Notes under the pieces: generated by a model
What the model was told of the DNA's origin: nothing
The model's input: only the letters and a program-made list of their open reading frames with translations
Databases searched by the model: none
Translations under genes and position numbers: made by a program
Assembly: GCA_018715645.1 (NCBI GenBank)
Contig: DVLE01000001.1
Location: 1-64,000 of the forward strand
Source of the DNA: Candidatus Merdisoma merdipullorum
Lineage (GTDB): Bacteria > Bacillota > Clostridia > Lachnospirales > Lachnospiraceae
DNA: 64,000 nucleotides
Direction: 5' to 3'
Shown here: positions 19,795 through 31,290 of the stretch, one piece after another
Layout of the letters: every line of letters starts with the position of its first letter
How positions within the stretch are numbered: the first letter of the stretch is position 1

Positions 19795-20397
19795 CTAAAT
19801 GGAGAAGCCGGGGAATCCATGCTTATATTTTTCGTCGTCAGAAGATTTGATTTTCCGTATGACTTTGCATGGATTCCCTGCGGCCAGCACCCCGGCAGGA
19901 ATATCCTTTACGACAACGCTTCCTGCCGCGATTATCGTATCATCGCCAATGGCTACTCCTCCTACAATCGCTGTGCCCGCGCCTATCCAGACATTGTTTC
20001 CTATTCTCACAGGCCAGCCGTATTCTATTCCATCTTTTCTGTCCTTCGGATCAAAGGGATGTCCCGCAGCATAGATTCCGCAGTTCGGGGCAAACTTGAC
20101 ATCATCCCCTATTTCAATCTTATTGGCAGCCAGAATGATAAAATTGTAGTTGGAGAAAAAGCGCTCGCCAATCGTGACATTTTTCCAGAAATCGCAGTAA
20201 AACGGCTGTTCAATACGAAATCCTTCCCCGATGCTTCCCATCTCTCTTTTGATAAACTCCATTCTCTTTTCCGACTCCACCGGAGACAATAAATTGTACT
20301 GGTAGGAAAGCTCCTGCGAGCGAACTCTTTCCTCGTCAATTTCCTTTTCCTGCGCATCGTAAAACATACCTGCCAGGGCCTTTGCCTGCTCCGTCAT
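19795..20397 (-). CDS. sugar O-acetyltransferase (maltose/galactoside acetyltransferase-like)
   Basis: Hexapeptide-repeat C-terminus [53 protein letters not shown]-terminal Mac-like domain. Confidence 0.9.
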
Positions 20398-20414: not shown

Positions 20415-21149
20415 CTAGCGAATCTCCCGGTCCAGATATTCCAGCGTACGGCGCACAATTTCATCGCCAAATTCTTTGCTGGCTTCCGCCGCACTCTGCG
20501 CATACCATTCCGTGTTGTCCTTTCTCCGTTCCAGATCCACCCTTTCCGGGTACAGGCTCAGCATCATGCTCGTCTCCACCTTACCCGCGTGATCAAAGCC
20601 GCAGATCTTCTGCACCTCAGCTCCCAGAAGCGGAAGCACTTTGATATAGGAAAACGGATCATCGCCAGTCGTGCAGTCTTCGTAGTAGTTTGCGTAAGAA
20701 TCCTTTCCCCACCAGCCAGGACCCTGGGTACCTTCCAGATACTCCATGATCACCTTTTTCGCGGCTTTGTGGCAGGCCAGCGTCATCGGCATCAGCCCGG
20801 CATTCTCCGTCTGATGATGCGGAATGCAGTATATGTTCTTGACGCCTCCCCAGACAAGCGACTTCAGGATATGGTAAAGATACTGTTCATAGGCGTCCAC
20901 GTCCACATGAATCGTACCGCTTTCCGGTCCCGCCACGGCGTAGCTTGCGACGCCGTACCAGATGGGCGGGCAGACTACGATTTCCTTCTTTTTCTCAAGT
21001 TCTCTTAAAACGCCTGTGACTACAAAAGTGTCCGTACCCATGCTCAGATGCCTGGTATGGTATTCTATCGTTCCGATAGGAATGATAAACGGAACCTTTC
21101 TTTCCCTTGCATCCTCCAATTCCTTGTAAAAAATGTCCAATAACTGCAT
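20415..21149 (-). CDS. creatininase-family amidohydrolase
   Basis: [13 protein letters not shown] (ExH...D), [19 protein letters not shown]. Confidence 0.85.
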
Positions 21150-21183: not shown

Positions 21184-21519
21184 TCATTTCACGTAAAAAA
21201 TGCGTTCCATATCATGATAATAGGGGCTGTCTTTATCAAAGGCATACTCCTCAAAGCAAGGGTGCGTATGCTCCCACCACCTCTGCGTGACCGGATCTTC
21301 TTCCATTTTCTTCATATCAGCCTCGTAATCCGTTCCAACATATTCAAAATAAGCAAACACGAGCCTTTCATGAATGAAAATGGAATAATTGGTAAGATTG
21401 CATTCCTGTATCATTTTCACCACATCCGGCCAGGGCGCGGCGTGCAGCCTCACATATTCTTCCTCCATACCTTCTTTGAGAAGACCTAGTTGTCCGAAAT
21501 ACTTAATCGTTTCTGCTAT
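21184..21519 (-). CDS. L-rhamnose mutarotase-like protein (apparent non-AUG start)
   Basis: WPDVVKMIQECNLTNYSIFIHERLVFAYFEYVG...VTQRWWEHTHPCF. Homologous N-terminus IKYFGQLGLLKEGMEEEY continues in frame upstream of the first ATG (21468); candidate starts ATA 21519, ACG 21510, ATT 21507. Confidence 0.75.
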   Translation of the reverse strand: MAETIKYFGQLGLLKEGMEEEYVRLHAAPWPDVVKMIQECNLTNYSIFIHERLVFAYFEYVGTDYEADMKKMEEDPVTQRWWEHTHPCFEEYAFDKDSPYYHDMERIFYVK

Positions 21520-22462
21520 CGTTCTCTCCTCCTTCCGCCAAGGCCACGATCTGCTCCCAGCTCGGCATGGCCGCGATCCCCGTTCTTCCTGTAGCGCAGA
21601 TCGCGGCTGCGGCGTTCGCGTATCGCGTCCTTTTTCCTATACTCCAGCCGGAACGATGAAGCAGCAGATAGTGCATCGTTCCTAAAAATGCGTCGCCGCA
21701 GCCCGTCGTATCGACAGCCTTCACTGGAAATGCCTGTTCAAATCCTATCTCCCCCCTGACTCCGTACCATGCGCCTTTCCCTCCCGCTGTGACAAATACA
21801 TAGCGAATCCCTTTGTCCAACAGTTTTTCTATCGCTCTTTCCGGATCGGCTGTCTCGGTCCCGGAAATCAGGTACAGTTCTTCTTCCGAAAGCTTCAGAA
21901 TGTCACAGCCATCCAGATTTTCCAGCATAATTGTCCTTGCGGCTTCCTCCGACTTCCACAGGTTCTCTCTGTAATTCGGATCAAAGGAAATCAGAACGCC
22001 TTTCTTCCTGGCCATATTTCTCATCTCCCGCACGGCGGAGGCGCAGGGCTCGTCTGTAAAGCTCAAGGTTCCATAATGAAAAATCTTTGCGTCAAGCCAC
22101 CAGCCGTCCCGGATATGTTCCAGGCTCAGCCTGGTGTCCGCTCCCGGATTTCGGAAGAACGCGAACTGCCTTTCCCCATTCGCGTCATTGGCCACAAAAT
22201 CGATGGTGGTCAGTTCCGGAACCTCCACAACCCCTCTCGTATCGATCCGCAGTCCTTCCAACTGCTCCCGCAGAAATTTTCCGAAAAAATCCTGACCAAC
22301 GCTGCCGATGAACGCGCAGCTTCCGCCCAGCTTTGCATTCGCCGCCAGACAGTTCGCCGGAGCTCCGCCCGGATTCATCTCAAAGCCCGGATTCCCCATA
22401 GGGCCCTGAAAGGACGGAGAAAAATCTATCAATACCTCTCCAACTCCCACAACATCATACAT
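21503..22462 (-). CDS. PfkB-family carbohydrate kinase (fructokinase-like)
   Basis: GVGEVLIDFSP; NPGGAPANCLAANAKLGG; AVDTTGCGDAFLG. Confidence 0.9.
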   Translation of the reverse strand: MYDVVGVGEVLIDFSPSFQGPMGNPGFEMNPGGAPANCLAANAKLGGSCAFIGSVGQDFFGKFLREQLEGLRIDTRGVVEVPELTTIDFVANDANGERQFAFFRNPGADTRLSLEHIRDGWWLDAKIFHYGTLSFTDEPCASAVREMRNMARKKGVLISFDPNYRENLWKSEEAARTIMLENLDGCDILKLSEEELYLISGTETADPERAIEKLLDKGIRYVFVTAGGKGAWYGVRGEIGFEQAFPVKAVDTTGCGDAFLGTMHYLLLHRSGWSIGKRTRYANAAAAICATGRTGIAAMPSWEQIVALAEGGENDSRND

Positions 22463-23981
22463 ACTCGCTTTCCTCTTTATGAATCTTTCTCAGCATATGA
22501 AAACTACCCTTCAAGGACGGGTATAAAGAACGGTAAATCCTGTAATAAGGATCATAACGCTCATATCTTTCCCCGGATGGCTCAAACCGTTTCTCTTTTT
22601 GTGAAAAGATTTCGGACGCCTTTTTCCAGGTCACTGCCGGATCAGCGGCAATCATGGTGCACATTGCTCCCGCCGCGCAGCCTGCCTCCTGATTTTTCAT
22701 CCTTACAACGGTTCTTCCGGTAATATCCGCTTTTAACTGCAGCCAGTAATCCGATCTGGATCCGCCTCCAGCCGCCCAAAGCTCTTTTATCTGTATATTA
22801 CATCCGCGCTCTATCATTTCCAGATTCTGCCTCAGCTCATAGGTGATGCCCTCAAGAATCGCCTGCAGGATCTGTACTCTCTTTGTGCCAAGCTGGACTC
22901 CTATGACAGCTCCCAGTGAATCCGCGTCCTTGTAGGGCGGACCGGAACCTGCAAAATGCGGCAGAACCAAAAGGCCGGAGGGGCTGTCCGTACACTGTCC
23001 GATCATGGCGTCATATCCCTGCGTTTTCACGTCCGGCCGTTCAAGCTGATCGCAGTACCAGTTTACAATGGAACTTCCGCCCACGTTCGTCGCCGTACAG
23101 ATATAGAGATTCGGATACAAGTGATAATTCACCGCATATTTGTTTTCCATGAAATACGGCGTCAGCATAGGATCTTTCATGGATATGCTCAAAGCTTCCA
23201 TCGTACCCGTTCCTACTACTGCCGTGCCGCTTTCGGAAAGTCCCGCCCCCGTCGCCGTACACGCCTGGTCAAAACCGCCCGCGGCCACACGGACCGGACC
23301 TTTAAATCCAAGCCTCTCTGCCTCATCTGCATCCAGCCAGCCCACGGTTTCTCCGGAGTTTTTAAGCTCCGGCAGCCAGTCTTTACATAGTCCCGCCGCC
23401 TCAATGACCTCGTCGAGATAACTATGTTTCTTTATATCCACAAGCATCAGCCTCGCTGCCGAGGAGTAACTGCAGGCGGGCTTCCGAAGTCCTATCCTGT
23501 ACTGCAGAAAATCCTCCCAGGTCATCACATGCCGGATTTCCGAGTATAAAGCAGGCTCATGTGTTTTGTACCACATGAGCCTGAAAACACCATACTTTCT
23601 ATGTATCGGCAAGCCTGTTTTTTCAAAGAGATACCTGGCAGGGAATCTGGTCAGAAGCTGCAGGACTTCTTCCTGCCCTCTCACGTCGCAGGACATAATC
23701 ACCGGCCCCAGGCTTTTCATCCCGGCGTCCAGAATCACACACTCATCACCGGAAACGCTGATGGACAGGCCGGAGGCCGTATCCTCTCCCATATATGCGT
23801 TATTCTCCGCAATACATTCCCGCACAAGGACAGCCACAAGCTCCGGATCCAGTTCTTCCGCGCCAATGCGTTCTCTCTGATAGGGATACCTCCGATACGC
23901 TCTGTACAGCAGGTCTCCGGTTTCAGAAAACGTACATACTTTACACCCTGTCGTCCCTACGTCTATTCCCATATAGTTCAT
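22455..23981 (-). CDS. FGGY-family carbohydrate kinase (xylulokinase-like)
   Basis: MNYMGIDVGTTGCKVCTFSETG; AAGGFDQACTATGAGL; LWAAGGGSRSDYWLQLKADITGRTV. Confidence 0.9.
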   Translation of the reverse strand: MNYMGIDVGTTGCKVCTFSETGDLLYRAYRRYPYQRERIGAEELDPELVAVLVRECIAENNAYMGEDTASGLSISVSGDECVILDAGMKSLGPVIMSCDVRGQEEVLQLLTRFPARYLFEKTGLPIHRKYGVFRLMWYKTHEPALYSEIRHVMTWEDFLQYRIGLRKPACSYSSAARLMLVDIKKHSYLDEVIEAAGLCKDWLPELKNSGETVGWLDADEAERLGFKGPVRVAAGGFDQACTATGAGLSESGTAVVGTGTMEALSISMKDPMLTPYFMENKYAVNYHLYPNLYICTATNVGGSSIVNWYCDQLERPDVKTQGYDAMIGQCTDSPSGLLVLPHFAGSGPPYKDADSLGAVIGVQLGTKRVQILQAILEGITYELRQNLEMIERGCNIQIKELWAAGGGSRSDYWLQLKADITGRTVVRMKNQEAGCAAGAMCTMIAADPAVTWKKASEIFSQKEKRFEPSGERYERYDPYYRIYRSLYPSLKGSFHMLRKIHKEESEYV

Positions 23982-24006: not shown

Positions 24007-24846
24007 TCAGCGGTTCGCAAATATCTCCATCAGATGCTCCACTTCTCCTGTGACGCCCTTCTTGGCTTCCATCAGAAGTTCCGGGAATCTCATTCTGCCG
24101 TTTTCCAGCACGCGTATGATCTCATCGACTGCCGCCGTAGAAACTCTCGTAAAAATACTAATCTTATGAACGCCAATATCAATGGCTCTCCTGTAGGAAT
24201 CGTCCGCCACGCCGCTGCCGCCGTGCAGAGAGATAAATACGTCTGTTTTATCGCAGATCTTTTGAAGCCTGTCGTAATCCAGATGGCTTTCGCCCGCTGC
24301 TTTTCCATGGGTGGTGCCTACAGACACAGCCAGGATGTCCACGCCCGTCCTTTTTGTAAATTCCTCTACAAGCTCCGGATCCGTAACGGCGTCATGATCA
24401 TATTTGGCTGTGTTGTCCTTTCCCACGGTTCCGATCTTGCCCAGAGGAGCTTCCACCAGTACTCCATGCTTATGAGCCATCTCTACAATGTCTTTTGTCT
24501 GGTGAATCTTTTCCTCAAACGGAAGTTCATACCCATCGAACATCACCGTTGAGAAGCCTGCTTCAATCGCTTTCTCAATCGTCTCGACCTTCTTGGCATG
24601 ATCAAGCTGAAGCGCGATAGGAACGGAAGCCTTGGCCGCCTGGTTTTTCATAATATAGGTGATCAGCTCCCAGTCCGAAAACTTGATGTGGCTTTCCGCA
24701 AGCGGAAGAATAAGCGGATATTTCTTTTCTTCGGCGGCAGCTATAATCCCCTGTACCATTTCGATATTGAAGCAGTTAAAGGCTCCGACCGCATATCTGC
24801 CCTTTCTCGCTTCCTCCAGCATTCCCTTCATTTCCACAACAGCCAT
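24007..24846 (-). CDS. class II ketose-bisphosphate aldolase (GatY/KbaY/Fba family)
   Basis: AVGAFNCFNIEMVQGIIAAAEE; IALQLDHAKKVE; VGTTHG; ISLHGGSGV. Confidence 0.88.
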   Translation of the reverse strand: MAVVEMKGMLEEARKGRYAVGAFNCFNIEMVQGIIAAAEEKKYPLILPLAESHIKFSDWELITYIMKNQAAKASVPIALQLDHAKKVETIEKAIEAGFSTVMFDGYELPFEEKIHQTKDIVEMAHKHGVLVEAPLGKIGTVGKDNTAKYDHDAVTDPELVEEFTKRTGVDILAVSVGTTHGKAAGESHLDYDRLQKICDKTDVFISLHGGSGVADDSYRRAIDIGVHKISIFTRVSTAAVDEIIRVLENGRMRFPELLMEAKKGVTGEVEHLMEIFANR

Positions 24847-24887: not shown

Positions 24888-26057
24888 TCAGCAGTCTATC
24901 TCATGAATCGTTCCAATCTGCGGGCTCAAAAGGTCGCAGCCCTCCTCCGTGATCACAATCGGCTTTTCCCATCTCAGTCCAAAGTCCGGTCCCATAGCAA
25001 AGGTATCGATCTGGAAAGTCATATTCTTTTTCAGCGGATAATCGGAAATCGTCTCCATCCACGGCGCCTCTACCTCAATCAGCCCCAGTCCGTGGCAGGG
25101 ACCATAGAGCAGGTTTTCTCCATAGCCGTTTTCCTGGAAGAACGTGATGAAATCCTTCGCGATTGTCGAGGCCACAACGCCTGCCTTCAACTGTTTCTCC
25201 GTCCACATGTGCGCTTTCAGGCAGAACTCAACCAGTTCTCTTTTCAGCCCTGTCAGCGGTCCCATGGAAACAGGGATTCCGATAGACGGGGAATAACCGT
25301 CTATTTTGGCTGCCAGATTAATCTGTACAATGTCTCCCTTCTCTATCTCCCTGTAGCTGGATCTTGAGATCGCATGCTGCGTGGATTTTCCGGAAAATAC
25401 ATACAGAGGAAGTCCCTCATATTCGGCGCCGTTCTCATAGATACACTGCTGCGCTACTCCTACCATCTGCAGCTCCGTCACACCGGGTCTTAATTTCCGA
25501 ATCACTTCATCCGTCGCAAGCTTTGTGATGCGCGCCGCCTCTCTCAGGCAAGCGATTTCGTTGTCGGATTTAACCGAACGCAGCGTCGTCATAATATCGT
25601 CGCATCTGACAATCTCCGCCTTCGGATATGCTTCCTTCAGCCCTTCGTAAACTACCAGATTCGTATCCAGCCATGCAGCCATACCGATACGGATACAGTC
25701 GCCTGTCACATGCAGCTCCTGAAATACCTCCCGGAAGGTCTGGCATTTCAGTTCCGGGTACGCGGGATTGGCGGATTCTCTGTATTCTCTTAATACTCTT
25801 ACTTTCTCAATCTTTCCAAAGTCGCTTGCAAAAATCTCGCTCTCAGGGCCTACCATAAGCGCGCAGTCTCCATTCGGAGTAATCGCGACGCCTACTCTCT
25901 CAAATACCGGCCAGAAGCCCGAAAAATATCTTGTATTTGCATAGTCAGCTTCCGAACCATTTACCACAAGAATATCCAGTCCTTTTTCTTTCACAAGCTC
26001 TGCGGCCCTTTTGATTCTTTCTTTATATTCATAGTCAGGTATACATACTCTGCTCAT
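24888..26057 (-). CDS. M24-fold (Xaa-Pro peptidase/creatinase-like) protein
   Basis: ITRYFSGF-type N-domain (ANTRYFSGFWPVF), LRSVKSDNEIACLREAARIT, GPCHGLGLIEVEAPW, FGLRWEKPIVITEEGCDLL. Confidence 0.85.
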   Translation of the reverse strand: MSRVCIPDYEYKERIKRAAELVKEKGLDILVVNGSEADYANTRYFSGFWPVFERVGVAITPNGDCALMVGPESEIFASDFGKIEKVRVLREYRESANPAYPELKCQTFREVFQELHVTGDCIRIGMAAWLDTNLVVYEGLKEAYPKAEIVRCDDIMTTLRSVKSDNEIACLREAARITKLATDEVIRKLRPGVTELQMVGVAQQCIYENGAEYEGLPLYVFSGKSTQHAISRSSYREIEKGDIVQINLAAKIDGYSPSIGIPVSMGPLTGLKRELVEFCLKAHMWTEKQLKAGVVASTIAKDFITFFQENGYGENLLYGPCHGLGLIEVEAPWMETISDYPLKKNMTFQIDTFAMGPDFGLRWEKPIVITEEGCDLLSPQIGTIHEIDC

Positions 26058-26090: not shown

Positions 26091-26462
26091 TCAGTCTGCA
26101 GCATATCCCATAACCGTATAATACGCCAGATTCGTCTGTCTTGAGTCAAGACGGCCATACTGCACAATCACCGGAACCGAGCTTTCCACCTTCAGGGCGT
26201 ACTGGGTTTCCAACGGTTGTACCTTATCTTTCAGGTATTTTTCTTCGTGTGTTTTCATGCAGCACACACGCTCTGCGCCGACACAGATCTCCTCTGTCGT
26301 AACAGGATCTTTGTCTTCGTAATAAAAAGTGATTTTGATGATGGCCTGCTCTTTGTTTGGATTCAGAATCACAATGGATTCATGCCCCTTAAGCGGGCTG
26401 TCTCCAAACGGCGGCCTGTCCCCATCCGGGAAAAACCATATTTTCTTTCCGTATTCTTTCAT
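26091..26462 (-). CDS. Anabaena sensory rhodopsin transducer (ASRT)-like protein
   Basis: PPFGDSPLKGHESIVILNPNKEQAIIKITFYYEDKDPVTTEEICVGAERV...VPVIVQYGRLDSRQTNLAYYTVMGYA matches the ASRT pattern (HEtvcILN...ItiYYsDkEPVgp...vPivVQhtRLDSRQ). Confidence 0.8.
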   Translation of the reverse strand: MKEYGKKIWFFPDGDRPPFGDSPLKGHESIVILNPNKEQAIIKITFYYEDKDPVTTEEICVGAERVCCMKTHEEKYLKDKVQPLETQYALKVESSVPVIVQYGRLDSRQTNLAYYTVMGYAAD

Positions 26463-26480: not shown

Positions 26481-26510
26481 GCGCAACGAGCAAACGATTG
26501 CTCATTGCGC
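26481..26510. promoter_or_regulatory. LacI-type operator upstream of the enzyme operon
   Basis: GAGCAAACGATTGCTC (26488-26503) is the reverse complement of the 16-bp core at 31271-31286; flanked by GCGCAA/TTGCGC. Confidence 0.8.
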
Positions 26511-26534: not shown

Positions 26535-27533
26535 TCAGTTCTTCTTCAGCGTATGACCTTCCAGGAACTTATATGGCAACAGCTTGCGGCAATGCTGTCC
26601 GGGATTCTTCATGTTATTCAAAACCATCTCCACAGCGGCTTCCGCAATCTCTTCCACAGGCTGTACGATTCCTGTTATGTTGATCCCATGCAGCGACATC
26701 GGATCCTCGCCATCAAAACAGACAAGCCCAATATCTTCCGGCACGCGTATTCCATGTTTTCTCAGCGCCGCGTATGCTCCGAATGCTTCTACGTTGTTGT
26801 GCGCATAGATACATTCCGGCAGCTTATGATCCTGAATCAGCCTCTCAACTATCTCAAAACCGCTTTTATAATGACAGTCGCCAAAATAGATTCTGTCCTG
26901 GGTACATCCGATATGATTTTCCCGAAGACAATTCTGAAAACCCACCAGACGCTGATTGCTCGATGTCTCATCCAAATCCCCGGTTATCATGATAATATCC
27001 CTGTAGCCCGCATCAATCACGTACTGCGTAAGCTCCATCGACGCCTGCATATTATTGATACTCACAAACGAATACGGCTTTTCCGTCATGTATGGCTCAT
27101 TGTCTACAAACACACAGTTAATATTCTGCGATTCATTTTCATATATCATGCTTCTTCTCGCAGGCGACACAATAATTCCCGCTACATTTTTCTCTTTTAA
27201 CAGCTGATAATACTCCAGTTCACGTGCAACGCTTTCATCCGTATCGCAGAATATGATATTATAGCCCTGTTCCCATAATTTATGGTCGATACACTTCAAC
27301 ATTCTCACAAAAAATGTATTTGTAACGTCCGGTATAATCACACCAATCGTAGAACTTGTCTGTTTTTTCAGCTCACGTGCATTCACATTCGGCGTATAAT
27401 TCATTCTCTTTGCAGCATCCAAAACAGCCTTTCTTTTTTCAACGCTGATTCTGCCTGTATTATTCAATACCCTGGAAACGCTGGATACGGATAATCCGAC
27501 TTCCTCCGCAATGTCCTTCAATGTTGCTCTCAT
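26535..27533 (-). CDS. LacI-family transcriptional regulator
   Basis: MRATLKDIAEEVGLSVSSVSRVLNNTGRISVEKR HTH plus periplasmic-binding-protein-like domain; TTGGAG upstream of ATG 27533. Confidence 0.93.
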   Translation of the reverse strand: MRATLKDIAEEVGLSVSSVSRVLNNTGRISVEKRKAVLDAAKRMNYTPNVNARELKKQTSSTIGVIIPDVTNTFFVRMLKCIDHKLWEQGYNIIFCDTDESVARELEYYQLLKEKNVAGIIVSPARRSMIYENESQNINCVFVDNEPYMTEKPYSFVSINNMQASMELTQYVIDAGYRDIIMITGDLDETSSNQRLVGFQNCLRENHIGCTQDRIYFGDCHYKSGFEIVERLIQDHKLPECIYAHNNVEAFGAYAALRKHGIRVPEDIGLVCFDGEDPMSLHGINITGIVQPVEEIAEAAVEMVLNNMKNPGQHCRKLLPYKFLEGHTLKKN

Positions 27534-27621
27534 ACCATACTCCAATTCTGAAACTTTTTTCATAGCCTACTGTTGTTTCAGAATAACATCTTTGATAAGA
27601 AATGTCAAAACTATACAAATA

Positions 27622-28674
27622 TCAGTCGTACAGCAGAGGAGCGATTTCCGGGTCATCCATATTGGAAGCGTCATACCAGTAGCAGCCGGTATCAATAAAG
27701 GATTCCACTTCTTCTCCATTCAAAAGCTTTACAGCGCTTTCCACTGCCGCACGTCCCATACCGATCGGATCCTGCGTGATTGCTCCAACGATCTCGCCGC
27801 TTCTCACTGCGTCTTTCATCGCTGCTGAGGAATCGAAACCGATCAGCATTACTTCGCCGATCTTGCCGATTTCCTTCAGTCCGTTATATGCTCCTACGCA
27901 GCTTCCTTCATTAGAGGTATAAATCAGATCCAGGTCCGGAACGGCAGTAACCATACTCTTGGCAATCTCGGCAGACTTCACATGATCTCCATCGCCGTAC
28001 TGGATGTCCACGATCTCAATATTCGGATAATCCGACTCAATCTTATCTTTAAAGCCCTGTACACGCTCTACCGCGTCTACTACTGTCTGGGAATGGCCGA
28101 TAATGGCGATCTTTCCCTCGCCGCCCAGGAGCTCTCCCGCATGTTCCGCCGCAAGCGCGCCGGCAGCTATAGAATCCGTGGAGCATTTTACGTCTGATTC
28201 TTCTTCGCCTACGCCCGCGTCAAAGCCAACGATCGGAACGCCCTGCGCCTTCTCTTCCTGAAGAATCGAAGCTACTGACCCCGTGTCAATCGCCGCCATG
28301 CAGATCGCGGCGGGATTATTCTGGATTGCCGTCTTCAGCATGTCTACCTGCTTATCTACCATAGTTTCCTGTTCCGGTCCTTCAAAGGTAATGGTATATC
28401 CCAGTTCTGCGGCAGCTTCCTCTGCGCCCTGCTTTACAGCCTGCCAGTACTGATGGGAAAATCCCAGCGCAATCATAGCGATATACTTATTATCCTCCTC
28501 ATTCGCTGCTGTGGTTTCCGTTTCGGTTCCCGTATCTGCTTCCTCAGTCGTCTCTCCTGTGCTTTCCGCTGCGGCGTCCGCAGAACTCTCCTGGCCTGTC
28601 TGAGAAGAACAGCCGAATAACGTCGTCGCCAGCATTCCTGCCACCATCAATAATGCTACAAGTTTCTTTTTCAT
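27622..28674 (-). CDS. sugar ABC transporter substrate-binding lipoprotein (RbsB-type)
   Basis: Lipobox LFGCSS; MVDKQVDMLKTAIQNNPAAICMAAID; FDAGVG. Confidence 0.92.
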   Translation of the reverse strand: MKKKLVALLMVAGMLATTLFGCSSQTGQESSADAAAESTGETTEEADTGTETETTAANEEDNKYIAMIALGFSHQYWQAVKQGAEEAAAELGYTITFEGPEQETMVDKQVDMLKTAIQNNPAAICMAAIDTGSVASILQEEKAQGVPIVGFDAGVGEEESDVKCSTDSIAAGALAAEHAGELLGGEGKIAIIGHSQTVVDAVERVQGFKDKIESDYPNIEIVDIQYGDGDHVKSAEIAKSMVTAVPDLDLIYTSNEGSCVGAYNGLKEIGKIGEVMLIGFDSSAAMKDAVRSGEIVGAITQDPIGMGRAAVESAVKLLNGEEVESFIDTGCYWYDASNMDDPEIAPLLYD

Positions 28675-28760: not shown

Positions 28761-29738
28761 TTATCTGCTCTCTTTTTTCTTCTTTCTTCTCTGATCAAAG
28801 GCCACCGTCACAATCAAAACAAAGCCGATGATCGCGTACTGCGTCTCCGTCGAAATCTGAAGAATACGAAGGCCATTCTGCAGAGAACTGATGATCAGGG
28901 CTCCTATCAGCGTACCGATAATCGTTCCTTCGCCTCCCATAAGAGAGTTGCCGCCGATAACAGCCGCCGCGATCGCGTCCATTTCATAGCCTGGACCAAG
29001 AGCGGGCTGAGCTGAATTCAGTCTGGATGAAAGTACAAGTCCGGCGATTCCCGCGTATGTACCGCACAGAGTATACACTCCAATCAGCCAGTTATCCGTA
29101 TTGATGCCTGACAATCTTGTTGCCTCAATATTGGAACCGATGGCGAGCGTATATCTTCCGAAAATGGTCTTTGAGAAAATGATATACGATATGACGCACA
29201 TTCCGATCAGAATGATAATCGCATTGTAAAAGCCATTGATCCCCAGAAAATTTCCTGTGGCAATCTTCTGATACCAGGAACAGTCCGTAAAGTATACCGG
29301 CTTGATTCCGGATACGACAAGGGAAAGTCCCTTGGTGATCATCTGCATGGCCAAGGAGGCAATCATTGGAGGCAAGCCCAGCTTGGCGCTCATGAAACCA
29401 TTCAGGAAACCACAGAACGATCCGACCAAAATGCCGAATATAATACACAGACCAATGGGAAGTCCAAGCGAGTTAAAAACCACGCCGCTGAGAACGCAGC
29501 TAAAAGTCATTACTGTTCCCACGGAAATATCGATTCCGCTCGTCATAATCGGCCAGGATACTCCCAGAGCCAGCAGGCCGTTTGTGCTTGTGGCCAGAAG
29601 AATGGTCATAATATTGGTATAACTCAGATACGCCGGATTGATAAAGCCGAACGCAATCCAAAGGACTATAAGCGCCAGCACTATAACCAGCTTTCTCTTA
29701 AACTCCGTCTGTTTTGTTAAAGTACTCAATCTATTCAT
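28761..29738 (-). CDS. sugar ABC transporter permease (RbsC-type)
   Basis: LLALGVSWPIMTSGIDISVGTVM; IAAAVIGGNSLMGGEGTIIGTLIGALI. Confidence 0.93.
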   Translation of the reverse strand: MNRLSTLTKQTEFKRKLVIVLALIVLWIAFGFINPAYLSYTNIMTILLATSTNGLLALGVSWPIMTSGIDISVGTVMTFSCVLSGVVFNSLGLPIGLCIIFGILVGSFCGFLNGFMSAKLGLPPMIASLAMQMITKGLSLVVSGIKPVYFTDCSWYQKIATGNFLGINGFYNAIIILIGMCVISYIIFSKTIFGRYTLAIGSNIEATRLSGINTDNWLIGVYTLCGTYAGIAGLVLSSRLNSAQPALGPGYEMDAIAAAVIGGNSLMGGEGTIIGTLIGALIISSLQNGLRILQISTETQYAIIGFVLIVTVAFDQRRKKKKESR

Positions 29739-29753
29739 ATCTACCTGTCTCCT

Positions 29754-31250
29754 TTACATCTCCCTCTGGGTCGCAAGCCTCATAATAATGTCCTGATCCA
29801 CCTCGTCGCCCGTCACCTCTCCTGTCATCCTGCCCTCGCACATGACCAGGACTCTGTGACAGCATCTCATAACCTCCGGAAGCTCCGAGGAAATCACAAT
29901 AATCGTTTTTCCCTGCTCAGCCAGCATATTCATCAGTTTATAGATCTCACTTTTAGCGCCTACGTCGATTCCTCTGGTCGGCTCGTCGAAAATAATAATT
30001 TCAGCGTCCTTTGTCAGCCATTTGGCAAGAACCACCTTTTGCTGATTCCCGCCCGATAAGTATTTGACCAACTGTTTGATAGACGGCGTCTTAATAGAAA
30101 GTTCCTGAAGCTGATGCTCTGCGTTTTCTGAACATTCTTTAAATTTGATGAAACCGCCTTTCGACATCTTGAGAAGATTCGCCATGGATATATTCGCTTC
30201 CACGTCAAGGCCAAGCGCAAGTCCATATCTTTTTCTGTCCTCTGACAGATAAGCGATTCCGGCTTTTACCGCGTCCGCCGGCGAATTGATTTTCTGTTCC
30301 TTTCCATTAATGATGATCTTTCCTGAACTGTGCGGATCTGCTCCGAAGATAGCTCTCGCTGTTTCCGTTCTTCCCGCTCCGACCAGACCGGCAAAGCCCA
30401 AAATCTCTCCCGCATAAGCCTTAAAGCTGATATTTTTTACCTGCGGTCCCGCATTCAGGTCCTGAACCTCCAGCGTCAGTTTCAGATTCTTTCGTTCCAC
30501 CGGCTTCTGCTTTTCCACGAAGATTTCCCGTCCCACCATCATCCGGATCAGAGCGTCGATCGACACATCCTTTGCATCTACCGTATCAATGTACTCGCTG
30601 TCTCTCATCACTGTGATTCTGTCCGCTATAAGCTTCAGCTCCTCAAGCCTGTGAGAAATATGTATGATAGCCTTTCCCTCCGAACGGAGCATTTTAATCA
30701 CTTCAAATAAATCTTCAATTTCGTTGTCTGTCAAAGAAGCCGTCGGCTCGTCCATAATCAATACCTTGATATTAAAAGACAGGGCTTTGGCGATCTCTAC
30801 CATCTGCTGCTGGGCTACCGTCAGATTTCCGACCTTTTCCCTCGGATCGATTTTTACATGAAGTTTTTCAAATAACTTTTCCGCTTCTTCATTTTGTTTC
30901 TTCTTATTCAGAATAAACCTTCCCTTTTTAAATTCCCTCCCGATAAAAATATTTTCCGCCGCGCTTAAATGATTCATCAGATTCAATTCCTGGTGTATCA
31001 TAATCACTCCCGCATTCTGCGCCTCCTTCACATTGCGGAAGTTTACCTCCCGACCTTCCAGAAATATTTTCCCTGCGTCCTTGGAATACACTCCTGTTAG
31101 GACTTTCATCAACGTCGACTTTCCCGCCCCGTTCTCTCCCACAAGAGCATGTACCTCCCCTGCGTTCAGAGAGAACTTTACGTTTGACAAAGCCTTCACC
31201 CCAGGGAATTCCTTCGTGATCCCCTCCATCCTGATAACTTCTTTAGACAT
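29754..31250 (-). CDS. sugar ABC transporter ATP-binding protein (RbsA-type, two ABC domains)
   Basis: GENGAGKSTLMKVLTGVY; LSGGNQQKVVLAKWL; FDEPTRGIDVGAKSEIY. Confidence 0.95.
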   Translation of the reverse strand: MSKEVIRMEGITKEFPGVKALSNVKFSLNAGEVHALVGENGAGKSTLMKVLTGVYSKDAGKIFLEGREVNFRNVKEAQNAGVIMIHQELNLMNHLSAAENIFIGREFKKGRFILNKKKQNEEAEKLFEKLHVKIDPREKVGNLTVAQQQMVEIAKALSFNIKVLIMDEPTASLTDNEIEDLFEVIKMLRSEGKAIIHISHRLEELKLIADRITVMRDSEYIDTVDAKDVSIDALIRMMVGREIFVEKQKPVERKNLKLTLEVQDLNAGPQVKNISFKAYAGEILGFAGLVGAGRTETARAIFGADPHSSGKIIINGKEQKINSPADAVKAGIAYLSEDRKRYGLALGLDVEANISMANLLKMSKGGFIKFKECSENAEHQLQELSIKTPSIKQLVKYLSGGNQQKVVLAKWLTKDAEIIIFDEPTRGIDVGAKSEIYKLMNMLAEQGKTIIVISSELPEVMRCCHRVLVMCEGRMTGEVTGDEVDQDIIMRLATQREM

Positions 31251-31266: not shown

Positions 31267-31290
31267 ATTTGAGCAATCGTTTGCTCAAAT
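31267..31290. promoter_or_regulatory. LacI-type operator upstream of the ABC transporter genes
   Basis: ATTTGAGCAA-TCGT-TTGCTCAAAT, just downstream of a minus-strand promoter TTGACA (31321-31326), 17 nt, TTTATT (31298-31303). Confidence 0.85.

Follow-up and report, generated by a model that had tools for sequence, protein, structure and literature searches.

A Cys-less branch of the ASRT family, linked to an M24 protein, in a sugar operon with LacI-type operators of Candidatus Merdisoma merdipullorum

The DNA analysed here (the window; 64,000 nucleotides of a contig of Candidatus Merdisoma merdipullorum) encodes, within a sugar operon, a small soluble protein with a beta-sandwich fold that belongs to the ASRT/ASRAH family. 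The gene is a member of a branch of the family that lacks the predicted ligand Cys of the pocket (C-) and is accompanied at most loci by a gene for an M24 protein (creatinase/prolidase fold). This branch is apparently undescribed and has a predicted change in its ligand pocket. We give the broad claim, that an M24-linked branch serves light-independent sugar catabolism, much more confidence than the mechanism proposed for it.

The ASRAH superfamily was defined by De Souza, Iyer and Aravind in 2009, with rhodopsin-free carriers already noted and with sugar binding proposed from operon context and from the cleft that holds 1,2-ethanediol in structure 1nc7 (PMC2739507). The original prediction for our gene, a sugar-binding or sugar-processing protein independent of light sensing, is therefore largely the 2009 proposal, and this reading was already known; what is new is the separate branch, whose partner seems not to have been reported before. 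The main text of PMC2739507 makes no mention of M24, prolidase, creatininase, mutarotase, rhamnose or a Cys-less branch of the stand-alone family, and no work joining ASRT with M24 or creatininase was found in open-access text.

Family, fold and pocket of the window protein

The 123-amino-acid product matches the PF07100 ASRT profile at E 1.8e-32 and 112 bits (cut-off, 25), with residues 5-121 aligned to profile positions 2-119 of 119. The VPxxVQxxRLDSRQ stretch, quoted originally as part of a retained ASRT core, is present as SSVPVIVQYGRLDSRQ. Sequence matches in the PDB are 2ii7 and 2iia (Anabaena ASRT) and 1nc7 (T. maritima TM1070). An AlphaFold2 monomer model built from 20 homologues (mean pLDDT, 88) has a beta-sandwich fold like that of 1nc7 and 2ii7, superposing on the former with TM 0.84 (2.2 A, 33% identity) and on the latter with TM about 0.7; the remaining structure matches are weak, CBM6 and other carbohydrate-binding modules among them. 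The profile search and the fold comparison suggested as checks on family membership thus both came out in its favour, the fold at the level of the monomer only. The coordinates first given for the gene were exact, its minus strand having gone unstated.

Within the superfamily the signature SHEshChhN is described as nearly absolute, with its His and Cys touching the ligand (PMC2739507). In the window protein the corresponding residues are GHESIVILN; the His, Glu and Asn are retained and the Cys is missing. The protein is thus classed within PF07100 but on a separate branch, and is no strict-sense ASRT. It resembles TM1070, an ASRAH protein, in its fold, its sugar operon, the lack of a rhodopsin and the invariant His, Glu, Asn, Arg and Arg, but in TM1070 the pocket Cys is present (C29, PMC2739507) and the linked genes encode isomerase, aldolase and kinase, whereas the window gene lacks that Cys and is M24-linked. 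With Anabaena ASRT it shares PF07100, the fold and a similar VPxxVQxxRLDSRQ core; it differs in having no rhodopsin partner, no pocket Cys and a different operon. As described for the ASRAH superfamily (PMC2739507), it belongs to a stand-alone intracellular family with predicted sugar binding.

The operon and its LacI-type operators

The gene lies in a minus-strand run of twelve genes, from 31250 down to 19795, with intergenic gaps of -8 to 86 bp; Table 1 gives the genes in operon order. A LacI regulator, an ABC importer and sugar enzymes in this run confirm the sugar-operon setting that had been assigned to the gene. The best NCBIfam matches of the substrate-binding protein, the kinases, the aldolase and the creatininase-family enzyme all fall below their cut-offs, and no isomerase was recognised among the twelve genes.

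Table 1. Genes of the operon, in order, and operator sites in the window
Feature	Coordinates	Strand	Remarks
Sugar ABC transporter ATPase	29754..31250	-	Identified from the translation; related loci have homologues at the matching position
Sugar ABC transporter permease	28761..29738	-	Identified from the translation; related loci have homologues at the matching position
Sugar ABC transporter substrate-binding lipoprotein	27622..28674	-	Best NCBIfam match RhaS, below RhaS cut-off
LacI-family regulator	26535..27563	-	Profile matches
ASRT-family (PF07100) protein, C- branch	26091..26462	-	123 aa ORF; motif GHESIVILN, Cys68
M24 (creatinase/prolidase fold) protein	24888..26057	-	The two Asp metal ligands are N and S here, and one Glu is Asp; His and last Glu retained
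Class II ketose-bisphosphate aldolase (PF01116)	24007..24846	-	Profile matches
FGGY carbohydrate kinase, XylB-like	22455..23981	-	Profile matches
PfkB-family sugar kinase	21503..22462	-	Profile matches
RhaM-like mutarotase (PF05336)	21184..21468	-	Below TIGR02625 equivalog cut-off
Creatininase-family (PF02633) amidohydrolase	20415..21149	-	Profile match; E29, H31, D40, H112
Maltose-O-acetyltransferase-type (Mac/Hexapep) enzyme	19795..20397	-	Profile match
LacI-type operator GAGCAAACGATTGCTC, 16 bp	26488..26503	.	In lacI-ASRT gap, 25 bp upstream of ASRT gene
Second operator copy	31271..31286	.	Upstream of ABC transporter operon

The LacI-type operator claimed to precede the gene is indeed there, and within 2 mismatches the 64 kb hold only one other copy of GAGCAAACGATTGCTC. 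The site is a CG-centred palindrome that stands before each regulated unit and recurs in relatives, after lacI in L026, L043, L044, L045, L046, L047 and L049, and before the ABC gene in L045, L046, L047 and L049, with a degenerate copy in L043. Because both operator positions are conserved in relatives, a two-unit LacI regulon is well supported, and we infer that the LacI protein of the window binds both copies.

Three near relatives of the window operon (L043, L044 and L049) have an insertion after the M24 gene that is missing from the window; it encodes a 228-amino-acid protein with a weak Methyltransf_2 match only (L044:3848-4534). The contig of a close relative (L042) carries the record name uncultured Merdimonas sp.

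Two branches of the family and their neighbours

ASRT loci were gathered, with no choice by context, from relatives, from Bacillota and from Planctomycetota, and were supplemented by a similarity search and four plasmid records. A tree of 80 ASRT domains, built with the Cys column left out, has about 120 columns only and a poorly resolved inner order; one branch of it (SH-aLRT, 98) separates the 51 rows lacking the pocket Cys (C-) from the 29 rows having it (C+). At position 31 all 29 C+ rows have Cys (HExxC), and the 51 C- rows have an aliphatic residue, rarely Ser or Thr. Position 68 is His in every C+ row (29/29) and Cys in 46 of the 51 C- rows, while Gln occupies position 87 in 51/51 C- rows and mostly Pro does so in C+. 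His27, Glu28, Asn34, Arg65 and Arg104 are invariant in all 80 rows.

C+ genes of Bacillota are mainly found in rhamnose or rhamnogalacturonan clusters, where they adjoin genes for L-rhamnose isomerase, alpha-L-rhamnosidase GH106, GH88, a rhamnogalacturonan lyase-like protein and class II aldolase; one group of C+ loci, L131-L134, adjoins large glycosidase genes instead (GH42 beta-galactosidase in L131). The rhamnose context of the C+ branch supports a sugar role for the family.

The neighbours of the C- branch are different. An M24 gene lies within 6 kb of the ASRT gene at 46 of 51 C- loci and at 0 of 29 C+ loci. The same comparison gives 28/51 against 0/29 for a nearby creatininase-family gene and 13/51 against 0/29 for a RhaM-like mutarotase gene; since flank lengths differ among loci, none for C+ here means none within the available flanking stretch. 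The Fisher p of 5e-17 for these branch-linkage counts ignores relatedness and is not taken as evidence. Among the five C- loci without M24, three end at a contig edge (L059, L066 and L067), one has a cut M24 gene at the edge (L136) and L074 is a true exception; an additional C- gene, L157, has no M24 over about 8 kb. In the context-independent samples M24 was present at 22 of 23 C- loci (the exception being L157) and at no C+ locus.

The linkage also appears in the reverse direction. This type of M24 (E<=1e-60) was found in 14 of 145 relatives, including 10/10 of those with a C- ASRT and 0/3 of those with only C+. Since four of the 14 carry it without any ASRT, and since L074 and L157 have ample flank but no M24, the pairing is strong but not obligatory. 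The C- branch arose once, so repeated independent co-change of Cys and M24 cannot be shown, and an independent-pairs test of Cys loss against M24 yields one pair only. The weight of the pairing comes from its being kept, in differing operons, across at least six phyla (Bacillota, Planctomycetota, Spirochaetota, Verrucomicrobiota, Kiritimatiellota and Acidobacteriota). The original prediction was right about family and sugar setting, but it missed the separate Cys-less branch with its M24 partner and, often, a creatininase-family enzyme.

No fusion of ASRT with M24, creatininase or RhaM was found among the frames scanned; apparent ASRT-M24 overlaps (e.g. in L141) are long stop-to-stop frames and were rejected as fusions. 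A Mac/Hexapep sugar O-acetyltransferase is fused in-frame to a C- ASRT domain in two species (L038:9792-10793, L040:9858-10841 (minus)), and the window operon ends in an acetyltransferase of the same type. A family of about 600 amino acids without a Pfam match adjoins the M24-creatininase-ASRT module in Planctomycetota and relatives (L068:10348-12174; equivalents in L060, L061, L063-L067 and L069-L073). Several C- operons include a protein of about 700 amino acids that matches GH20 domain 2 and has no GH20 catalytic match (L031:4874-6976; equivalents in L032, L033, L037, L039, L050 and L053). A phosphotriesterase-family (PTE) gene recurs near some C- ASRT loci: L157:8834-9901 (by eye), L025, L028 (Pfam) and L029.

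The partner proteins and the role of the C- branch

The ASRT-linked M24 proteins depart from the metal-ligand set D, D, H, E, E. In their alignment both metal Asp residues are replaced in every readable copy, the His and the last Glu are kept in 53/53 and the other Glu has become Asp in 51/53. In the same genome, two further M24 proteins retain the His, both Asp residues and the first Glu (the last site is aligned as D in L152). Since the linked proteins retain the His and a Glu and have Asp for the other Glu, a single metal could still be held, and the partner may be an enzyme with one metal, a hydrolase with none, or a protein that only binds.

The model of the window M24 protein (pLDDT, 92) is about as close to prolidase as to creatinase and the ectoine hydrolase EutD (TM about 0.80-0.84), and there is a distant profile match to creatinase 1chm (E 2.5e-34). 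It shares the M24 fold with creatinase (1chm, 7yto) and EutD (6twk) at TM about 0.82, but identity to them is 16-19% and, unlike them, it sits in sugar operons beside ASRT. Creatinase lacks a two-metal site, and the M24 partner is like it in this respect. NCBIfam models for ectoine hydrolase score 48 and 41 bits, against cut-offs of 575 and 613. The name Xaa-Pro peptidase was rejected, both metal-ligand Asp residues being lost. In the creatininase-family neighbours, E29, H31, D40 and H112, positions with a known role in the family, are invariant in 32/32 ASRT-linked copies, and because all four are kept, the neighbours are predicted to be catalytically intact.

The reading that we favour, which we judge about equally likely to hold or to fail, is that C- ASRT handles substrate as the dedicated partner of the M24 protein, in a sugar pathway under LacI control. 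As long as the sugar is absent, LacI would repress both the importer and the catabolic operon. ASRT would bind what the importer brings in, whether the compound as such or a single anomer, ring form or open-chain form of it, in a pocket to which the invariant His27, Glu28, Arg65 and Arg104 probably contribute. From there the ligand would go to the M24 protein, or the two proteins would act on it jointly; the M24 protein is probably a hydrolase that, like creatinase, does without a two-metal site. A further amide or cyclic bond would be opened by the creatininase-family enzyme, and the freed ketose would pass through the FGGY and PfkB kinases to the class II aldolase. The exchange of Cys31/His68 for aliphatic31/Cys68 may mark the change of ligand from the rhamnose-linked C+ branch. 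A more ambitious proposal, which is tentative and as a whole rather unlikely, joins C- ASRT, the M24 protein lacking the metal site and the creatininase-family enzyme in a single conserved system of catabolism found in six phyla or more. The system would cleave a sugar compound bearing nitrogen or an amide, and ASRT would be its substrate-binding subunit, whose pocket would have switched from Cys/His to aliphatic/Cys when the partner changed.

ASRT might itself be a small sugar-converting enzyme, most likely a mutarotase, with C+ replacing RhaM in rhamnose pathways and C- serving another sugar; we consider this possible, though on the unlikely side. The rhaMADBC operon of T. maritima is induced 27-37-fold on rhamnose (PMC3750489). 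This organism has PF07100 but no match to the PF05336 mutarotase, so its 'rhaM' is probably TM1070, a C+ ASRT, by an elimination that the text of PMC3750489, which gives no locus tag, leaves as such. The lack of RhaM-like genes around C+ within the available stretch points the same way, and the invariant His, Glu, Arg and Arg would suit acid-base catalysis. A second mutarotase would, however, be redundant at the C- loci that have their own RhaM-like gene, the window locus included, which argues that C- ASRT does something else.

Handling of substrate for the M24 protein also accounts better for the tight pairing with one enzyme type than does a sugar sensor that regulates neighbouring enzymes or the transporter by protein contact, as proposed in 2009. 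Operon context and the 1,2-ethanediol pocket of 1nc7 are in keeping with such a sensor (PMC2739507), but regulation is already provided for by LacI and two operators, and we find the sensor improbable. LacI equally explains regulation without a DNA-binding ASRT. Anabaena ASRT binds and loops DNA in vitro (PMC8660804), and a role as transcriptional co-regulator of the operon, as reported for that protein on the pec promoter, could be imagined by analogy; with a KD of 1.7 uM, measured at 50 mM NaCl, it is very improbable here.

A rhodopsin transducer in the strict sense is encoded with and bound to a sensory rhodopsin. The host genome (a 2.87 Mb draft, 87% complete) has one PF07100 gene, and no PF01036 rhodopsin was found in this draft, nor in any of the 28 related genomes to which C- loci led; the same search matches 8 of 200 planctomycetes and is thus able to see rhodopsins. 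The remark that the window holds no rhodopsin was correct and extends to the draft genome. A genuine light-signalling transducer with its rhodopsin elsewhere in the genome, for which the family name and the incompleteness of the draft might speak, can be set aside almost entirely on these searches. Six planctomycete frames of 1800-2500 amino acids (L111, L112, L113, L116, L117 and L118) have weak ASRT-domain matches; three genomes carry them, and two of the three (G604 and G666) also have a rhodopsin.

Taken together, family membership, the sugar operon, the operator and the lack of a detectable rhodopsin make light-independent work on a sugar or sugar derivative well supported by context, and to this extent the sugar role first predicted for the gene stands. 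Public annotation names such genes 'sensory rhodopsin transducer' regardless of context, which is misleading here. The family divides into two branches, one linked largely to rhamnose and one found with an M24 protein that lacks the metal site; each gains a concrete partner and substrate class for testing, and residues 31 and 68 likely set the choice of ligand. The results also suggest that gut Lachnospiraceae, Planctomycetota and Spirochaetota have a sugar pathway, as yet uncharacterised, in which creatinase-fold and creatininase-family proteins occur together.
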